43,284 nt of DNA from an uncultured Oscillospiraceae bacterium (lineage in GTDB: Bacteria > Bacillota > Clostridia > Oscillospirales > Oscillospiraceae), in assembly GCA_947588955.1 (NCBI GenBank), contig CANPYX010000020.1:1-43284 (forward strand), written 5' to 3'. Position 1 is the first letter of the stretch. Each line of letters starts with the position of its first letter. Both the position numbers and the translations under genes were made by a program. The notes beneath the pieces were generated by a model, which was not told the DNA's origin, made no database searches, and worked only from the letters and a program-made list of their open reading frames with translations. Shown piece by piece: positions 14,992 to 40,340 of this stretch.

Positions 14992-15002
14992 TCGTCTTGC
15001 AT

Positions 15003-15088
<86 letters not shown>

Positions 15089-15115
15089 ATCGGGGGTATT
15101 TTTGCGCCCGTTTTC

Positions 15116-25750: not shown

Positions 25751-26050
25751 GCAAAAATCTCAAAATTCCATATTTTTCCGGCGGCATGTACGTCGGAAAA
25801 ATCACCTTTTGTTTTGCAAGTGTGCCGCCTTATGGGGTCCCCACGCAATCATGATTGCGTGGGGAGAGGAGGAGCGAAGTCCGCGCCTGAGCCCTGCCGC
25901 TTGTGGCGGGGCGAGGTTAAGCGACTTCAGCGACAACGAGCGCGCAGCGCGACAGCAGGAAGACCTCCGAGAAATGCCCGCAGGCATTTCTCGGAGGTCT
26001 TCCGCACGTTCCCCCTTCCCAAAAAGGGCAACGCCCTTTTTGGGAAAGTT
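25751..26050. repeat. modular hairpin repeat, copy 1
   Basis: A 300-bp non-coding element whose conserved blocks recur at 38324-38515. In order: a constant hairpin ATTTTTCCG/CGGAAAAAT (25772-25802); the block GCAAGTGTGCCGCC; a 26-bp perfect palindrome (25839-25864) found only in this copy; a GC-rich stretch ending GCGCGACAGCAG; a perfect 21-bp hairpin (25958-25978 with 25983-26003) with loop CGCA; CCGCACG then CCCCCTT; and a perfect 14-bp hairpin (26016-26029 with 26033-26046). It abuts the stop of the minus-strand htrA gene. The last hairpin followed by AAAGTTTTTA could also terminate plus-strand transcription. Confidence 0.85.
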
Positions 26051-26051
26051 T

Positions 26052-27602
26052 TTACCAGTTCCACCCAAACGGCCAGTTGAAGTCGAAGCCGCCCTGGGAC
26101 TGCTGCTGTTGCTGCTGGTCGTTAGTGGTTTCCTCCTCCTGGAGCTCGCCGAAGGTAACTGTCAGGTCCATGGACTGGCCGCTCAGGTCGGAATTCATGC
26201 GGTAAACTGTCAAGGTCTCCGTGTCGCCGGGTGCGTAGCGGCGCAGAGCCATTTTCAGCTCGTCAATGCTGGACACCGCCTTGCCGCCCACCGCGGTGAT
26301 GATGTCGTGGACCTGGACGCCCGCCTTATCCGCGGCCTCGCCCTCGTTAACCTCCACCACATAGCAGCCGGATGGAATGTTGTAATACTCGATGGCGTAG
26401 GGCTTGTAAAACTCCTCCACGTTGGTACCCTTGATACCCAGTCCCGCGCCGGTCACATACCCGTGCTCGATGAGCTGCGTGGCGATGGACACGGCGTCGT
26501 TGATGGGGATGGCGAAGCCCAGGCTCTCAATGCCCTCGTCGGCGTCGGAGTATTTCGCGGTGACTATACCGATGACCTCGCCGCGGGAGTTATAGACGGG
26601 TCCGCCGGAGTTGCCGTGGTTGACGGCGGCGTCTATCTGGAACATGTTGATGGAGGTGGTGGCGCCGGAGATGTCATCGGTGGTGGTGATCACCCGGTCC
26701 TGGGCGCTGATGTTGCCGAAGGTCGCGGTGTACTCCAGCTCGCCCAGAGGATTGCCGATTGCGCATACCCACTCGCCCACAAGCATCTTGTCGGAGTCGC
26801 CAAGCGTGACGGGCGTAAGCCCTTTGGCGTCGATCTTGATGACTGCCACGTCATTTGACTCCACGTAGCCTACGATCTGAGCGGGATAGGAGGTGCCGTC
26901 CTCCATGAGCACCGTCAGGTCCCCGCCGTATACCACGGCGTAGCTTATCACGTGGTAATTTGTGAGGATATAGCCGTCCTCGCTGATGATAAAGCCGGAG
27001 CCGGACACCGCGCGGGTGGTGGTTTGACCAAAGATGTTGTAGTTGTTAAGGGCGGTATTGACGCCCACCACCTGCTTGAGGCCCAGGTTGTATATCTGGT
27101 TTGCCGTCAGCGTTCCGGACTCGTCCGGCGCGGCCATCTGGTCATTGGCGACGGTGCTGGCCTGATTTATCACGACCTGCCTGCCGTCGCTTTCCGCGGC
27201 GTTGTGTTCAAGCATATAGTCGCACACGGCCCAGCTCGCGAGCCCCGCCACCAGCGCGCAAACCACCACAAGGCAGGCGGCCTTCAAAAATCCGTGGCTC
27301 TTCTTTTTCTTCGGCTTTTCCGGGACCTGCTGCGGCTGGTAGTTTTGCGCGCCGTAGGCGTAGCGTCCAGGGGTGTAAGCGCCCTCGCCGCTTCCCGCCG
27401 CCTCGTAGGTGGGCTCGCGCCAGGTCTCCCGCTCCTCATTGTAGGGCTGGACCGGCTGGGGGCGGCTGAAGCTGTTATTTACCGGCTCCGGCGCTTTTGG
27501 CGCCTCCGGCTCAGCTCCGGGGTCCTGCCCATATGTCTGTGGCTCCTCCGGAGATTCGGGGGTGTTCATTCCGTCTATCCTGTCGTTTTCGTCAAACAGC
27601 AT
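26052..27602 (-). CDS. htrA: HtrA/DegP-like membrane-anchored serine protease
   Basis: A 516-aa protein: a proline-rich cytosolic region (1-100), KPKKKK before a membrane helix (about 105-128), an extracellular trypsin-like domain with catalytic His217 (LTNYHV), Asp251 (SNDVAV) and Ser332 (GNSGGPV), one PDZ domain (about 390-490) and a Gln/Trp-rich tail. It degrades or refolds damaged proteins at the outer face of the membrane. AAGGAGAG precedes the ATG. It is monocistronic, with direct repeats in the promoter region that may bind a stress regulator. Confidence 0.95.
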   Translation of the reverse strand: MLFDENDRIDGMNTPESPEEPQTYGQDPGAEPEAPKAPEPVNNSFSRPQPVQPYNEERETWREPTYEAAGSGEGAYTPGRYAYGAQNYQPQQVPEKPKKKKSHGFLKAACLVVVCALVAGLASWAVCDYMLEHNAAESDGRQVVINQASTVANDQMAAPDESGTLTANQIYNLGLKQVVGVNTALNNYNIFGQTTTRAVSGSGFIISEDGYILTNYHVISYAVVYGGDLTVLMEDGTSYPAQIVGYVESNDVAVIKIDAKGLTPVTLGDSDKMLVGEWVCAIGNPLGELEYTATFGNISAQDRVITTTDDISGATTSINMFQIDAAVNHGNSGGPVYNSRGEVIGIVTAKYSDADEGIESLGFAIPINDAVSIATQLIEHGYVTGAGLGIKGTNVEEFYKPYAIEYYNIPSGCYVVEVNEGEAADKAGVQVHDIITAVGGKAVSSIDELKMALRRYAPGDTETLTVYRMNSDLSGQSMDLTVTFGELQEEETTNDQQQQQQSQGGFDFNWPFGWNW

Positions 27603-37410: not shown

Positions 37411-38256
37411 TTATTCCGCCTCCAGTTCCGCCAATTTTGCGTTCAATTCGTTCATCGCGACCTCATATTCGGCGTCGTTTGGCGCCTTCCCGTGCCACTC
37501 CACGGAGTTTGTCATGTAGCTTACGCCGGTGCCCTTGACGGTGTGCATGACGATGCCAAAGGGCTTGCCCTTTGTCTCACGCGCCCTGTTGAAAGCCGCC
37601 TCAATCTCGTCAAAATCGTGCCCGTTTATCTCCACTGTCTCAAAGCCGAATGCCCGCATTTTCCCGGCGATGTCGCCGGAGTCCATAACGTCCTTTGTAG
37701 GCCCGTCGATCTGGAGCCCGTTCTTGTCGATGATCGCCACGAAGTTGTCAAGCTTGTAATTTGCGGCGAACATAAATGCCTCCCAGACCTGCCCCTCCTC
37801 AATCTCTCCGTCGCCCAGAAGCGTGTACACCCGGCAGGACTTGCCCATGTACTTTGCCGCCTTCGCCATTCCGGCGGCGCAGCTGACGCCCTGTCCCAGG
37901 GAGCCCGTGGACATATCCACTCCCGGCGTCATGTTCATGTTGGGGTGACCCTGAAGGTGGCTGCCGATCTGCCGCAGTGTCTTCAGATCCTCCCAGGGGA
38001 AGAAGCCCCTGAGTGCCAGCGCCGCGTAAAGCCCCGGCGCGGTGTGGCCCTTGGAGAGCACAAACCGGTCACGGTCGGGGTTTTTGGGGGCGGCGGGGTC
38101 AACGTTCAGCTCCTTGAAATAGAGGTAGGTGAACAGATCCGCGGCTGAGAGTGAGCCGCCCGGATGTCCCGCCTTTGCCGCGTGGGTCCCCTCAATAATC
38201 CCCATACGGACCTTTGTCGCCTTGATGGCAAGGTCTTTCTTTTCTTCCAGTGTCAT
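37411..38256 (-). CDS. transketolase, N-terminal (diphosphate-binding) subunit
   Basis: A 281-aa subunit holding the TPP diphosphate/metal site: GDGEIEEGQVWEAFMFAANYKLDNFVAIIDKNGLQIDG is the classic GDG-N motif stretch (given here by its position, about residues 148-184), and SKGHTAPGLYAALALRGFF and LGQGVSCAAGMAKA are conserved. CAGGAGG precedes the ATG. It is the first gene after repeat copy 2 and may have its own start point, since AT-rich sequence lies at 38260-38320. Confidence 0.94.
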   Translation of the reverse strand: MTLEEKKDLAIKATKVRMGIIEGTHAAKAGHPGGSLSAADLFTYLYFKELNVDPAAPKNPDRDRFVLSKGHTAPGLYAALALRGFFPWEDLKTLRQIGSHLQGHPNMNMTPGVDMSTGSLGQGVSCAAGMAKAAKYMGKSCRVYTLLGDGEIEEGQVWEAFMFAANYKLDNFVAIIDKNGLQIDGPTKDVMDSGDIAGKMRAFGFETVEINGHDFDEIEAAFNRARETKGKPFGIVMHTVKGTGVSYMTNSVEWHGKAPNDAEYEVAMNELNAKLAELEAE

Positions 38257-38323
38257 TTTGTCCTCCTGAATTAGAATAAATGAAAAATGATAAAAAATGA
38301 ATATTACCGCCTGAGCTAAGAAC

Positions 38324-38515
38324 GCAAAACCTCAAATCCAATATTTTTCCGGCGGCATGTACGTCGGAAAAATCACCTTTCGTCGCGCAAGTGTGCCGCC
38401 CCCGGCGGCGCGCGCCGCGCGACAGCAGGAACAAATTTTTGAATTCCGCAGAATTCAAAAATTTGTTCCGCACGCATCCCCCTTGGCATTGAAAGGTCAA
38501 AGACCTTTCAAGCCA
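38324..38515. repeat. modular hairpin repeat, copy 2
   Basis: A shorter version of the element at 25751-26050. The constant hairpin ATTTTTCCG/CGGAAAAAT (38343-38373) and GCAAGTGTGCCGCC are the same. The central insert with the 26-bp palindrome is missing, replaced by a short GC-rich run. CGCGACAGCA is followed by a perfect 19-bp hairpin, again based on GGAA/TTCC with loop CGCA but with different arms (38428-38446 with 38451-38469). CCGCACG, CCCCCTT and a 10-bp hairpin TTGAAAGGTC/GACCTTTCAA (38489-38511) follow, abutting the araD stop. It sits inside the pentose operon. Confidence 0.85.
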
Positions 38516-38518
38516 GTT

Positions 38519-39211
38519 TCATTGTCCGTAATACGCGTTTTCTCCGTGCTTGCGCAGATAGTGCTTGTCCAAAAGCTCCTGCTGCATTCTTGGAAGTCCC
38601 GGAGTGAGCGCCATGGCGTGGAACGCCATAAACGCCACCTCCTCCAAAACCACGGCGTTGTGTACGGCGTTCATGGGGTCGGTACCCCAGGCAAAGGGAC
38701 CGTGGGAGCACACCAGCACGGCCGGTATGTCCACGGGGCTTATGTCCCGCTTTACAAACGTCTCAATTATTACATTCCCCGTCTCAAGCTCATAGTCCCC
38801 GGCTATCTCCTCAGGCGTCATTTTGCGGGTGCAGGGTATCTCTCCGTAAAAATAGTCCCCCTGGGTGGTGCCGAATGGCGGTATCCCCCTGCCGGCCTGG
38901 GCGAAGCTTGTCGCCCATCGTGAGTGGGTGTGGACTATGCCTCCCAGCGCCGGGAACGCCTTATAAAGCGCCACGTGGGTGGGCGTGTCGGAGGAAGGCT
39001 TGTACCGCCCCTCCACACGTTTGCCGCTCATGTCCACCACCACCATGTCCTCCGCCTTCATTCCGTCATATTCCACGCCCGAAGGCTTGATGACCACCAA
39101 CCCCTTTTCCCGGTCGATTCCCGACACGTTTCCCCAGGTGAAGGTCACGAGCCCGTGCTTCGGCAGCATGAGGTTTGCCTCCAAAACCTGCCGCTTCAGT
39201 TCCTCCAGCAT
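38519..39211 (-). CDS. araD: L-ribulose-5-phosphate 4-epimerase
   Basis: A 230-aa class II aldolase-fold epimerase that turns L-ribulose 5-phosphate into D-xylulose 5-phosphate. [33 protein letters not shown], the metal-binding [14 protein letters not shown] and the third His in [10 protein letters not shown] are intact. The start at 39211 has AAGGAGGAG upstream; a longer ORF form adds nine residues. It follows the kinase and HAD genes by 13 bases. The repeat element lies immediately after its stop. Confidence 0.96.
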
Positions 39212-39224
39212 ATTTTCTCCTCCT

Positions 39225-40340
39225 TTATTCAGTATCAAAAAGCTCCGTCAAAAGGTCCGCTATGGCGTCGGAGTCGTTGTCCCCGATGACTGTGTCCGCG
39301 GCGCTCTTTGCCTCCGGCACGGCGTTGCCCATGGCGACGCCCAGCCCCGCGGCGCGGAGCATCTCCACATCCGCCAGATCGTCGCCAAAGGCGATGATGT
39401 TTTTGGGGCTCAACAGCAGCTCCCCGCAGAGGGCATCAAGCCCCGACGCCTTGGTTATTCCTTTTTTCGTCAGCTTGTACCAGTCGGAATTTACAAACCT
39501 CACCACGTCCGCGAAGGGCAGCGCCCTTCTGAGCTCCTCCGCTCCGGCGGCGTCATAAAGCTTTACGCAGAACATCAGCGGCTCCGGCGGCGGGCGGGAG
39601 AAGTCCGTCTCCACGCACTCCTCAAACCCGGCGGAAAACTTATGCTCGGTGACGGGGTAGTTGCGGTAGTGGGTATCGGGTGTGTCCGAATCCATCAGGA
39701 CCTCAGGTCCCGCCGTATCCCGCGCCGCCCGAATTATATCCTCCGCCTCCTCCGCCGTGAAGGGCGCGGAGAAGATCACCCGCTCCCCAACCCTCACATG
39801 CGCTCCGGCGCTGGTTATGAGCACATCGGGGCGGAGCTCTCCGGTGAAAACCTCCGCGTTTTTCTCGCTTCTGGAGGTGGAAATACCTATTCTCATATTC
39901 CCCGCCCGCCGAATATCGCGCAGCTTTTCCAGATTGCGGGTTGATATTGTCTTGTCGCTTCTCAAAAGCGTGTCGTCCAAGTCAAAAAGCAGGAGCTTGT
40001 ACTTATACCTCAAAAGGTCCCACCGGACGATACCCTGGGTCCTGTAAAGCTCCCGCGCCGCGGTAAGGCTCAGCCCTCTGTTTTCGTCGCTGGGCTCACC
40101 GTCGCTTTTGGTAAACACGTCGTTCTCCCAAAAGCACACCGGGCAGATATACGCTATTGCCTCCTCCCTCGGCACGGGGTAGGTGATCTCCCCGCAGCAG
40201 GGGCAGGGATATTTAAACGAGTACCCATGGGGAACGGGAGGCTCCGGCTCCGGTATCATGTCCCCCGGCAGGTCGTTGCGCGCCGTTGGGAGAAACAGGT
40301 ATTTCTTCTCCGCCCCGCCGATAACGTCATCGCCTGTCAT
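39225..40340 (-). CDS. CPCC zinc-ribbon-like domain fused to a Cof-type HAD phosphatase
   Basis: A 371-aa two-domain protein. Residues about 43-105 form a cysteine-rich CPCC domain (YPCPCCGE, then [13 protein letters not shown] and the [14 protein letters not shown] helix), a likely metal-binding unit. Residues about 112-371 are a HAD hydrolase: nucleophile Asp120 in [14 protein letters not shown], then a Cof-like cap and [11 protein letters not shown] near 330. No Met lies between the domains, so they are made as one chain. It overlaps the kinase stop by four bases, suggesting a sugar-phosphate-related role. Confidence 0.87.

Follow-up and report, generated by a model that had tools for sequence, protein, structure and literature searches.

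A probable IS1182-type MITE family in high copy number, with modular hairpins that probably trade alleles between sites

The stretch analysed here (the window; 43,284 nt of contig CANPYX010000020.1 from an uncultured Oscillospiraceae bacterium) carries two copies of a hairpin element, 12.5 kb apart. The last hairpin of copy 1 lies 5 nt from the stop codon of a minus-strand gene (26052–27602). Copy 2 lies between an araD-like and a transketolase gene (38256–38519), and its last hairpin adjoins the stop codon of a gene also on the minus strand (38519–39238). A first-pass annotation of the window had described common blocks and perfect stems in the two copies, and reading both loci confirmed all of them: in copy 1 a 21-bp stem (25958–25978/25983–26003) with a CGCA loop and a 14-bp stem (26016–26029/26033–26046) with a 3-nt loop, and in copy 2 a 19-bp stem (38428–38446/38451–38469), again with a CGCA loop, and a 10-bp stem, TTGAAAGGTC-AAA-GACCTTTCAA, at 38489–38511. 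The element nevertheless has more hairpin units than the two described, namely four. Hairpin 1 (ATTTTTCCGRCGGCATGTACGTCGGAAAAAT) is fixed; after it come a linker, stem 2, which encloses CAAGTGTG and hairpin 2a, the CAGCAGG frame, hairpin 3 (CGCA loop), the tail CCGCACGTTCCCCCTT and hairpin 4 (Table 1). Copies measure roughly 170–320 bp and hold no transposase gene. Copy 1 contains an extra nested module, and because the arms of its stem 2 form a mismatched chimera (GTTTTG against CGCGAC) this copy has the appearance of a recombinant in which one stem is broken. The predicted fold of copy 2 is much stronger than those of its shuffles (z −11.9 and −7.2 for the two strands; none of 200 shuffles was as good). 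Membership in a known Rfam structured RNA family was rejected: over the window, Rfam 15 placed nothing on the element and found only a tRNA and a TPP riboswitch elsewhere (the latter at 14995–15103, plus strand, 57.6 bits, above gathering), and at seven loci searched at E ≤ 1 tRNA alone attained its gathering score.

Table 1. Parts of the two element copies in the window
Feature	Positions	Strand	Basis
Copy 1, leader rich in A and C; left end has decayed and its terminal repeat is unrecognisable	25751–25771	+	upstream base composition, 172 copies
Copy 1, hairpin 1, conserved sequence	25772–25802	+	pattern match
Copy 1, stem 2, 5' arm, allele GTTTTG, unmatched to its 3' arm	25811–25816	+	stem-2 alleles
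Copy 1, nested structured module, ~107 nt, also solo elsewhere in the genome	25833–25939	+	
Copy 1, stem 2, 3' arm, allele CGCGAC	25948–25953	+	stem-2 alleles
Copy 1, hairpin 3, 21 bp, CGCA loop	25958–26003	+	
Copy 1, conserved tail GCACGTTCCCCC	26004–26015	+	
Copy 1, hairpin 4, terminator-like core AAAAAGGGC-AAC-GCCCTTTTT	26016–26046	+	
Copy 2, hairpin 1	38343–38373	+	pattern match
Copy 2, stem 2, GTCGCG (38382–38387) / CGCGAC (38418–38423), around hairpin 2a	38382–38423	+	
Copy 2, hairpin 3, 19 bp, CGCA loop	38428–38469	+	
Copy 2, hairpin 4, 10 bp plus bulged outer GGC/GCC	38489–38511	+	

A search of the host genome and its relatives with the conserved blocks showed that the family is not confined to these two copies. 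With up to three mismatches allowed, the hairpin-1 pattern matches 109 places (61 + 48) in the own genome (G000; 2.56 Mb in 58 contigs), where the reversed pattern, used as a control, matches none; 103 element copies were read in the stretches around these matches. The sister genome G024 has 120 matches (56 + 64), from which 97 copies were read. The central claim of the first-pass annotation, a single family of scattered copies whose frame is constant and whose self-complementary arms vary, thus holds over the copies of both genomes. With copy 2 as a DNA query, 23 of 34 genomes of the genus match at E ≤ 0.001, the own genome included and G001 weakly. The exact hairpin-1 pattern is found in at least 99 stretches of GTDB contigs, mostly titled uncultured Oscillospiraceae, and among the matches listed 104 copies were read and hairpin 3 was parsed in 64. 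Copies in Pseudoflavonifractor gallinarum (L162, L170, L179, L200), Lawsonibacter (L165), Oscillibacter (L189) and Dysosmobacter (L199) have hairpin 1 in common and a hairpin at the end and are without hairpin 3; they are relatives of the design, not the full design. In the cultured strain P. gallinarum DSM 107456 these related copies have stem 2 in addition to hairpin 1 and the final hairpin. Several copies from other genera carry a stem of a different allele (CAGGCC...GGCCTG) around CAAGTGTG, and one has a module resembling the nested module of copy 1.

In the own genome hairpin 3 could be parsed in 85 of the 103 copies by a procedure that needed a CGCA loop and a minimum score and so favours good stems; the other 18 have another loop or a missing or degenerate interior, or are cut by a contig end or another repeat. 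The stems are not all perfect: 68 of the 85 are so outside the basal 3 bp, and 17 carry a mismatch there. As the 85 copies have 65 distinct 5' arms, an ordinary repeat with identical arms was rejected. Over a wider set of 298 de-duplicated copies hairpin 3 was parsed, again with a CGCA loop and a minimum score needed, in 235, 183 of them perfect over the inner 15 bp, with 126 distinct arms; hairpin 4, parsed in 174 copies from two genomes, was perfect in 147. Variability of the hairpin-3 arms is highest in the middle of the arm (1.4–1.8 bits per position); most columns of hairpin 1 stay below 0.4 bits. Stem 2 occurs as a series of compensated alleles (n = 205: CGCG/CGCG 72, TTTG/CAAA 56, CACG/CGTG 22, CGCC/GGCG 13), along with chimeras such as CGCG/CAAA (6) and TTTG/CGCG (4). 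When the loop criterion was relaxed, the hairpin-3 loop was CGCA in 207 of 220 copies and the inverted TGCG in two, and the one-step intermediates CGCG (4) and TGCA (1) were present.

Younger copies begin with CAGACTGTTGACAAACCCC or CAGACTGTCAAAAAAC and have their right end inside hairpin 4, for example TTGTCGGCAAAGGCC...GGCCTTTGCCGACAGGCT. This left end was recognised in 33 of 200 copies (16 of the TTGACAAAC type and 17 of the CTGTCAAA type), or in 48 of 200 with a looser pattern, and in neither window copy. Closely similar ends, those of a multicopy IS, occur at contig breaks of the own genome, where they precede sequence that encodes MLTRNAQK on one side and ACMNLKKLARKRWSDKW on the other side: 12 IS-type ends lie within ~200 nt of a break, and one more has another interior (L365–L377). 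Full IS copies with those ends and peptides are present in G024 (L386) and G029 (L387), both above the cut-off of NF033551 (IS1182 transposase), and a second IS1182 group, with CTGTCAAAAAAC ends, is represented by L389–L391. The younger copies and autonomous IS1182-family elements thus have terminal repeats in common. NF033551 scores above its cut-off in 8 of the 34 genus genomes, the sister G024 among them. The profile has no match in the own genome, which holds IS ends at contig breaks alone and no assembled IS1182 transposase; this is as expected if the IS copies are broken at contig ends, without being proof of it. Furthermore, counting any NF033551 match (E ≤ 0.001, whatever the IS1182 group), 17 of the 23 element-bearing genomes have one, versus 3 of the 11 others (Fisher p = 0.023). 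The high copy number, palindromic units and mosaic arrangement would also suit a REP/BIME-like element mobilised by a RAYT (Y1 tyrosine transposase), yet PF01797, which matches 5 of 14 control genomes, has no match in the own genome, and the element ends match those of IS1182-family IS instead; a RAYT-driven origin is refuted as it stands, and we consider it highly improbable. A solo palindrome of ~50 nt (L378, ~1395–1450), consists solely of a pair of IS-type ends, CAGACTGTAGACAAACACCGCCCC and the inverse of it, and has a terminator-like hairpin next to it; it is perhaps the smallest derivative.

We then looked at what flanks these ends. A hairpin with a score of at least 8 lies directly beside the IS-type end in 11 of 13 cases and beside the MITE left end in 16 of the 48 copies where one was recognised, compared with 3 of 195 windows used as controls and 4 of 480 shuffled sequences. 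Three IS copies (L386, L387, L389) have the same hairpin on both flanks. Among the copies with a left hairpin (score ≥ 7), 10 of 16 have a copy of it on the right side within one third edits, L016 being doubtful and L084 and L309 being one orthologous site. Of 172 copies, 14 are flanked by direct repeats of at least 9 nt, where 20 control shuffles gave a mean of 1.95 and no more than 5; most of the 172 show no visible flanking repeat. Judged by these flanks, the target of the younger copies is a stem-loop that is replaced or duplicated; old copies retain no recognisable target trace. Filled and empty sites were found as well. In G024 an element (L289) sits between two copies of ATAACCTCAC(T), of which G000 has one, and no element, at L086; a plain terminator in G000 (L093) corresponds to an element at the matching site of G024 (L337); and the interior between hairpin 1 and the tail, present in G024 (L314), is missing in G000 (L060). 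The araD-transketolase junction is occupied by an element in G000, G024 and G032, each time with a different stem set; since 15 of the 17 relatives compared have none there, the element may uncouple an operon in this lineage.

In most copies only a few bases separate hairpin 4 from a stop codon. A gene 3' end faces it in 71 of 86 copies in G000 and 81 of 89 in G024, at a median distance of 4 and 3 nt, respectively, as judged from codon-scored heuristic gene calls with distances cut at −10 nt and the context unclear in a further 17 of 103 and 8 of 97 copies; since each orthologous copy enters the tally of its own genome, the counts are not all independent. Copies between two gene starts number 0 of 86 and 2 of 89. 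At sites with a single 3' end, hairpin 4 faces that end in 59 of 80 (p = 2.5e-5, orthologous sites being counted in both genomes). Because gene 3' ends face it at a few nucleotides, hairpin 4 is well placed as a gene terminator, and it probably serves as the terminator of the adjoining gene.

We compared the copies at orthologous sites of G000 and G024. Anchoring on the left flank gave 41 such sites, of which we kept the 36 where the flanks match over 200 nt or more and both copies have a hairpin 3 (34 of these also have hairpin 4). Flank identity is 94.9%. Retention is above chance for hairpin 3, whose arms are identical in 9 of 36 pairs (1.2% of random pairs) with a mean arm identity of 0.70 versus 0.50 at random, and for hairpin 4 (9 of 34; random 0.2%). 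It is hardly above random for the hairpin-1 sequence (the same in 17 of 36 pairs; random 46%) and the stem-2 allele (11 of 32; random 27%); in 23 of 32 pairs the two copies agree in having or lacking the nested module (random 67%). Half of the orthologous hairpin-3 stems (18 of 36) differ in more than a quarter of their base pairs, at a flank divergence of ~5%. Finally, 6 of the 34 sites have an identical hairpin 4 and a different hairpin 3, and 6 have the reverse. We read this as exchange of interiors in place, from a circulating pool of alleles. Resident exchange would be unneeded if the orthologous terminator were a hot spot, hit independently and repeatedly by different copies: the IS end of L368 and the MITE copy L069 flank the very same hairpin, and in G024 (L331) a second element begins directly after the first hairpin 1. 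Repeated insertion is nonetheless rather unlikely in our view, as sites with only one of the two hairpins replaced arise more easily by internal exchange and most copies are without a recognisable new left end.

The changes in the stems are mostly matched between the arms. Among hairpins with no more than 25% of their base pairs changed, 19 changes are compensated and 3 are not in hairpin 4 (23 pairs), and the corresponding numbers for hairpin 3 (18 pairs) are 17 and 6. At 36:9 in total, these are not imperfect stems drifting without compensation, one of the outcomes that the first-pass annotation had set against its own proposal. In 41 orthologous chance hairpins outside the element the ratio is 1:17 (Fisher p = 4.5e-8), for a control picked as perfect in one genome only and without true terminators: of 173 hairpins of at least 7 bp outside the element, the 7 terminator-like ones have no ortholog in the compared stretches, and the 41 are those of the others that have one. 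Host hairpins of at least 10 bp were unusable as a control, because copies of the element and of another palindromic repeat family were mixed in with them. The compensation observed is not what independent double mutations would produce at 5% divergence.

Compensation of this kind is usually taken as a sign of selection on RNA structure, and the element could be a structured RNA or terminator (in a 3' UTR, for instance) whose stems drift by compensatory mutation as the transcript must fold. Its place beside stop codons, the terminator-like core of hairpin 4, the strong predicted folds and the constancy of the CGCA loop (207/220) all fit that account. The mismatches fit it less well. Hairpin 3 has 26 A·C, 23 G·T and 12 other mismatches (235 copies, 3525 cells) and hairpin 4 has 16, 17 and 2, so that G·T makes up 23 of 49 and 17 of 33 of the combined G·T and A·C mismatches, in tallies that count orthologous copies separately and are thus not all independent. 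This lack of a G·T preference argues against selection on one RNA strand, an argument that transcription of both strands would weaken, as selection on both transcripts could also give G·T/A·C symmetry. Furthermore, in the passages on Bacillus cereus terminators in PMC5381666, 89.5% of resolved AU-GC intermediates are GU and 79% of switches are AU-GC; here 34 of 72 compensated neighbours are of the transition type. Point mutation plus selection would also hardly change more than a quarter of the pairs in half of the orthologous stems at ~5% flank divergence. Altogether, selection on the transcript as the main cause seems unlikely to us.

Transitions and transversions among the compensated changes stand at 34:38, versus 767:490 in the flanks (p = 0.025); in the in-place set they stand at 17:19 (p = 0.12). 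With no preference for G·T over A·C and with compensated changes rich in transversions, the data lean toward a DNA-level process: the changes in the two arms probably occur together, on the DNA, and some process would keep the arms complementary. Simple copying of one point mutation to the other arm is not a clean fit, given the excess of transversions over the flanks, and replacement by a similar allele may account for some of the compensated changes in place. The first-pass annotation had offered strong selection on structure or a mechanism that writes new inverted repeats; either may apply, and the balance tips as just described, whereas its picture of arms written anew gives way in large part to ready-made alleles exchanged between sites. 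A bolder version, possible but doubtful, has the hairpin arms rewritten at the DNA level, IS1182-type stem-loop-directed exchange and arm-to-arm template switching replacing or repairing the resident stems and complementarity being kept by copying and not by RNA selection.

From the end match, the stem-loop targets of the younger copies, the filled and empty sites, the in-place turnover and the compensation without wobble preference, all read from the sequence, we infer as the best explanation, and a probable one, a MITE family moved in trans by IS1182-family transposases into stem-loop targets, with exchange of alleles after insertion and matching of the arms at the DNA level. The transposases would recognise terminal repeats like CAGACTGTTGACAAAC or CAGACTGTCAAAAAAC and insert the MITE at the foot of stem-loops, often intrinsic terminators, the target being duplicated or replaced. 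Such insertion at terminators would explain why copies adjoin gene 3' ends, with hairpin 4 probably acting as a terminator. Once a copy is in place, its interior (hairpin 1, stem 2, hairpin 3) would be swapped with those of other copies by ectopic recombination or gene conversion, so that a pool of alleles circulates over fixed sites. A change in one arm would be matched in the other on the DNA, by arm-to-arm copying during replication, by selection on a DNA hairpin or cruciform, or by both.

Several known systems resemble parts of this design. IS1182 members can have direct repeats of variable length (ISfinder), and the two-sided stem-loop seen here may therefore not be new. The high-copy intergenic element bcr1 of the Bacillus cereus group can also be likened to this one. 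IS1272 and TnSha1, of the IS1182 family, have as targets stem-loops without sequence consensus, often terminators, as does the element described here, and they replace the stem-loop, as at L337 in G024 compared with the plain terminator of L093 in G000 (PMC5678879, PMC4923244). Here, however, the whole stem-loop is often found on both sides, and target duplication is not reported in the passages on IS1272 and TnSha1 in these papers; for IS1272-type transposition, duplication of the stem-loop is modelled there as a possible pathway only (PMC5678879). The ISMac2 MITEs of Methanosarcina acetivorans are likewise short non-autonomous IS1182 derivatives (160 and 169 bp), but in far fewer copies (14 and 7) and in another domain of life, and the table passage on them does not mention variable hairpins in a constant frame (PMC3852290). 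BOX, RUP and SPRITE of Streptococcus pneumoniae are also high-copy intergenic elements inserted into one another in clusters, and MITEs in general have been proposed to form structured transcripts; the review passages on the three do not feature two things present here, series of compensated alleles in more than one hairpin unit and turnover in place at orthologous sites (PMC10969869). Template switching, as described in passages of PMC8794818, maintains perfect stems through DNA copying from the other arm and yields multi-base compensated changes like those here, but it is a mutational process and not an element family, and its loop-inversion footprint is rare in our copies. The first-pass annotation knew of no described family with this design. 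In the open-licence literature searched we found neither the family nor the pattern of hairpin turnover, but the kind is known from IS1182 MITEs (PMC3852290) and the stem-loop-targeted IS1272 (PMC5678879, PMC4923244), as far as the relevant passages of these papers describe them. The element is thus probably a new MITE family in high copy number, of the known kind that belongs with IS1182 and targets stem-loops; its modular hairpin interior is unusual, and the alleles of this interior probably pass from site to site.

With about a hundred copies in a gut bacterium, near-perfect pairing and sequences swapped between copies, the family offers a natural test case for the evolution of paired stems in DNA or RNA. 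Its 109 and 120 matches, filled and empty sites, ~95% identical sister genome and absence of wobble preference allow selection to be tested directly against DNA-level copying. The comparison also brings out IS1182-family copies that have the complete target stem-loop on each flank, as well as a mobile element sited at the 3' ends of many genes, which may gain terminators from it.

Other repeats were encountered alongside the element. The nested module of copy 1 (also in L103, L104, L106, L031 and L029) is a second dispersed structured module, GGGGTCCCC...GAGGAGGAGCGAAGCC...GCGACGACGA, which occurs solo in other contexts and is nested in 13 of 84 (G000) and 24 of 81 (G024) parsed element copies; a search of Rfam at E ≤ 1 gave no match over the module in L104 and L030. 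The arms of its first hairpin are self-complementary and differ between copies. A further palindromic repeat family (TTTCTTTCCTCTCTTTTGG...CCAAAAGAGAGGAAAGAAA) shows compensated differences between copies (L031, L059, L071, L082 and L093 versus L310). Another repeat, GGGGCTGTGAAAAAAGTCCCGTAAAAAAGGAAGAGAGTTACCAAGGGACCCTGGTAACTC, is found at contig ends in L054, L078 and L365 and also in L062, and in places cuts element copies.
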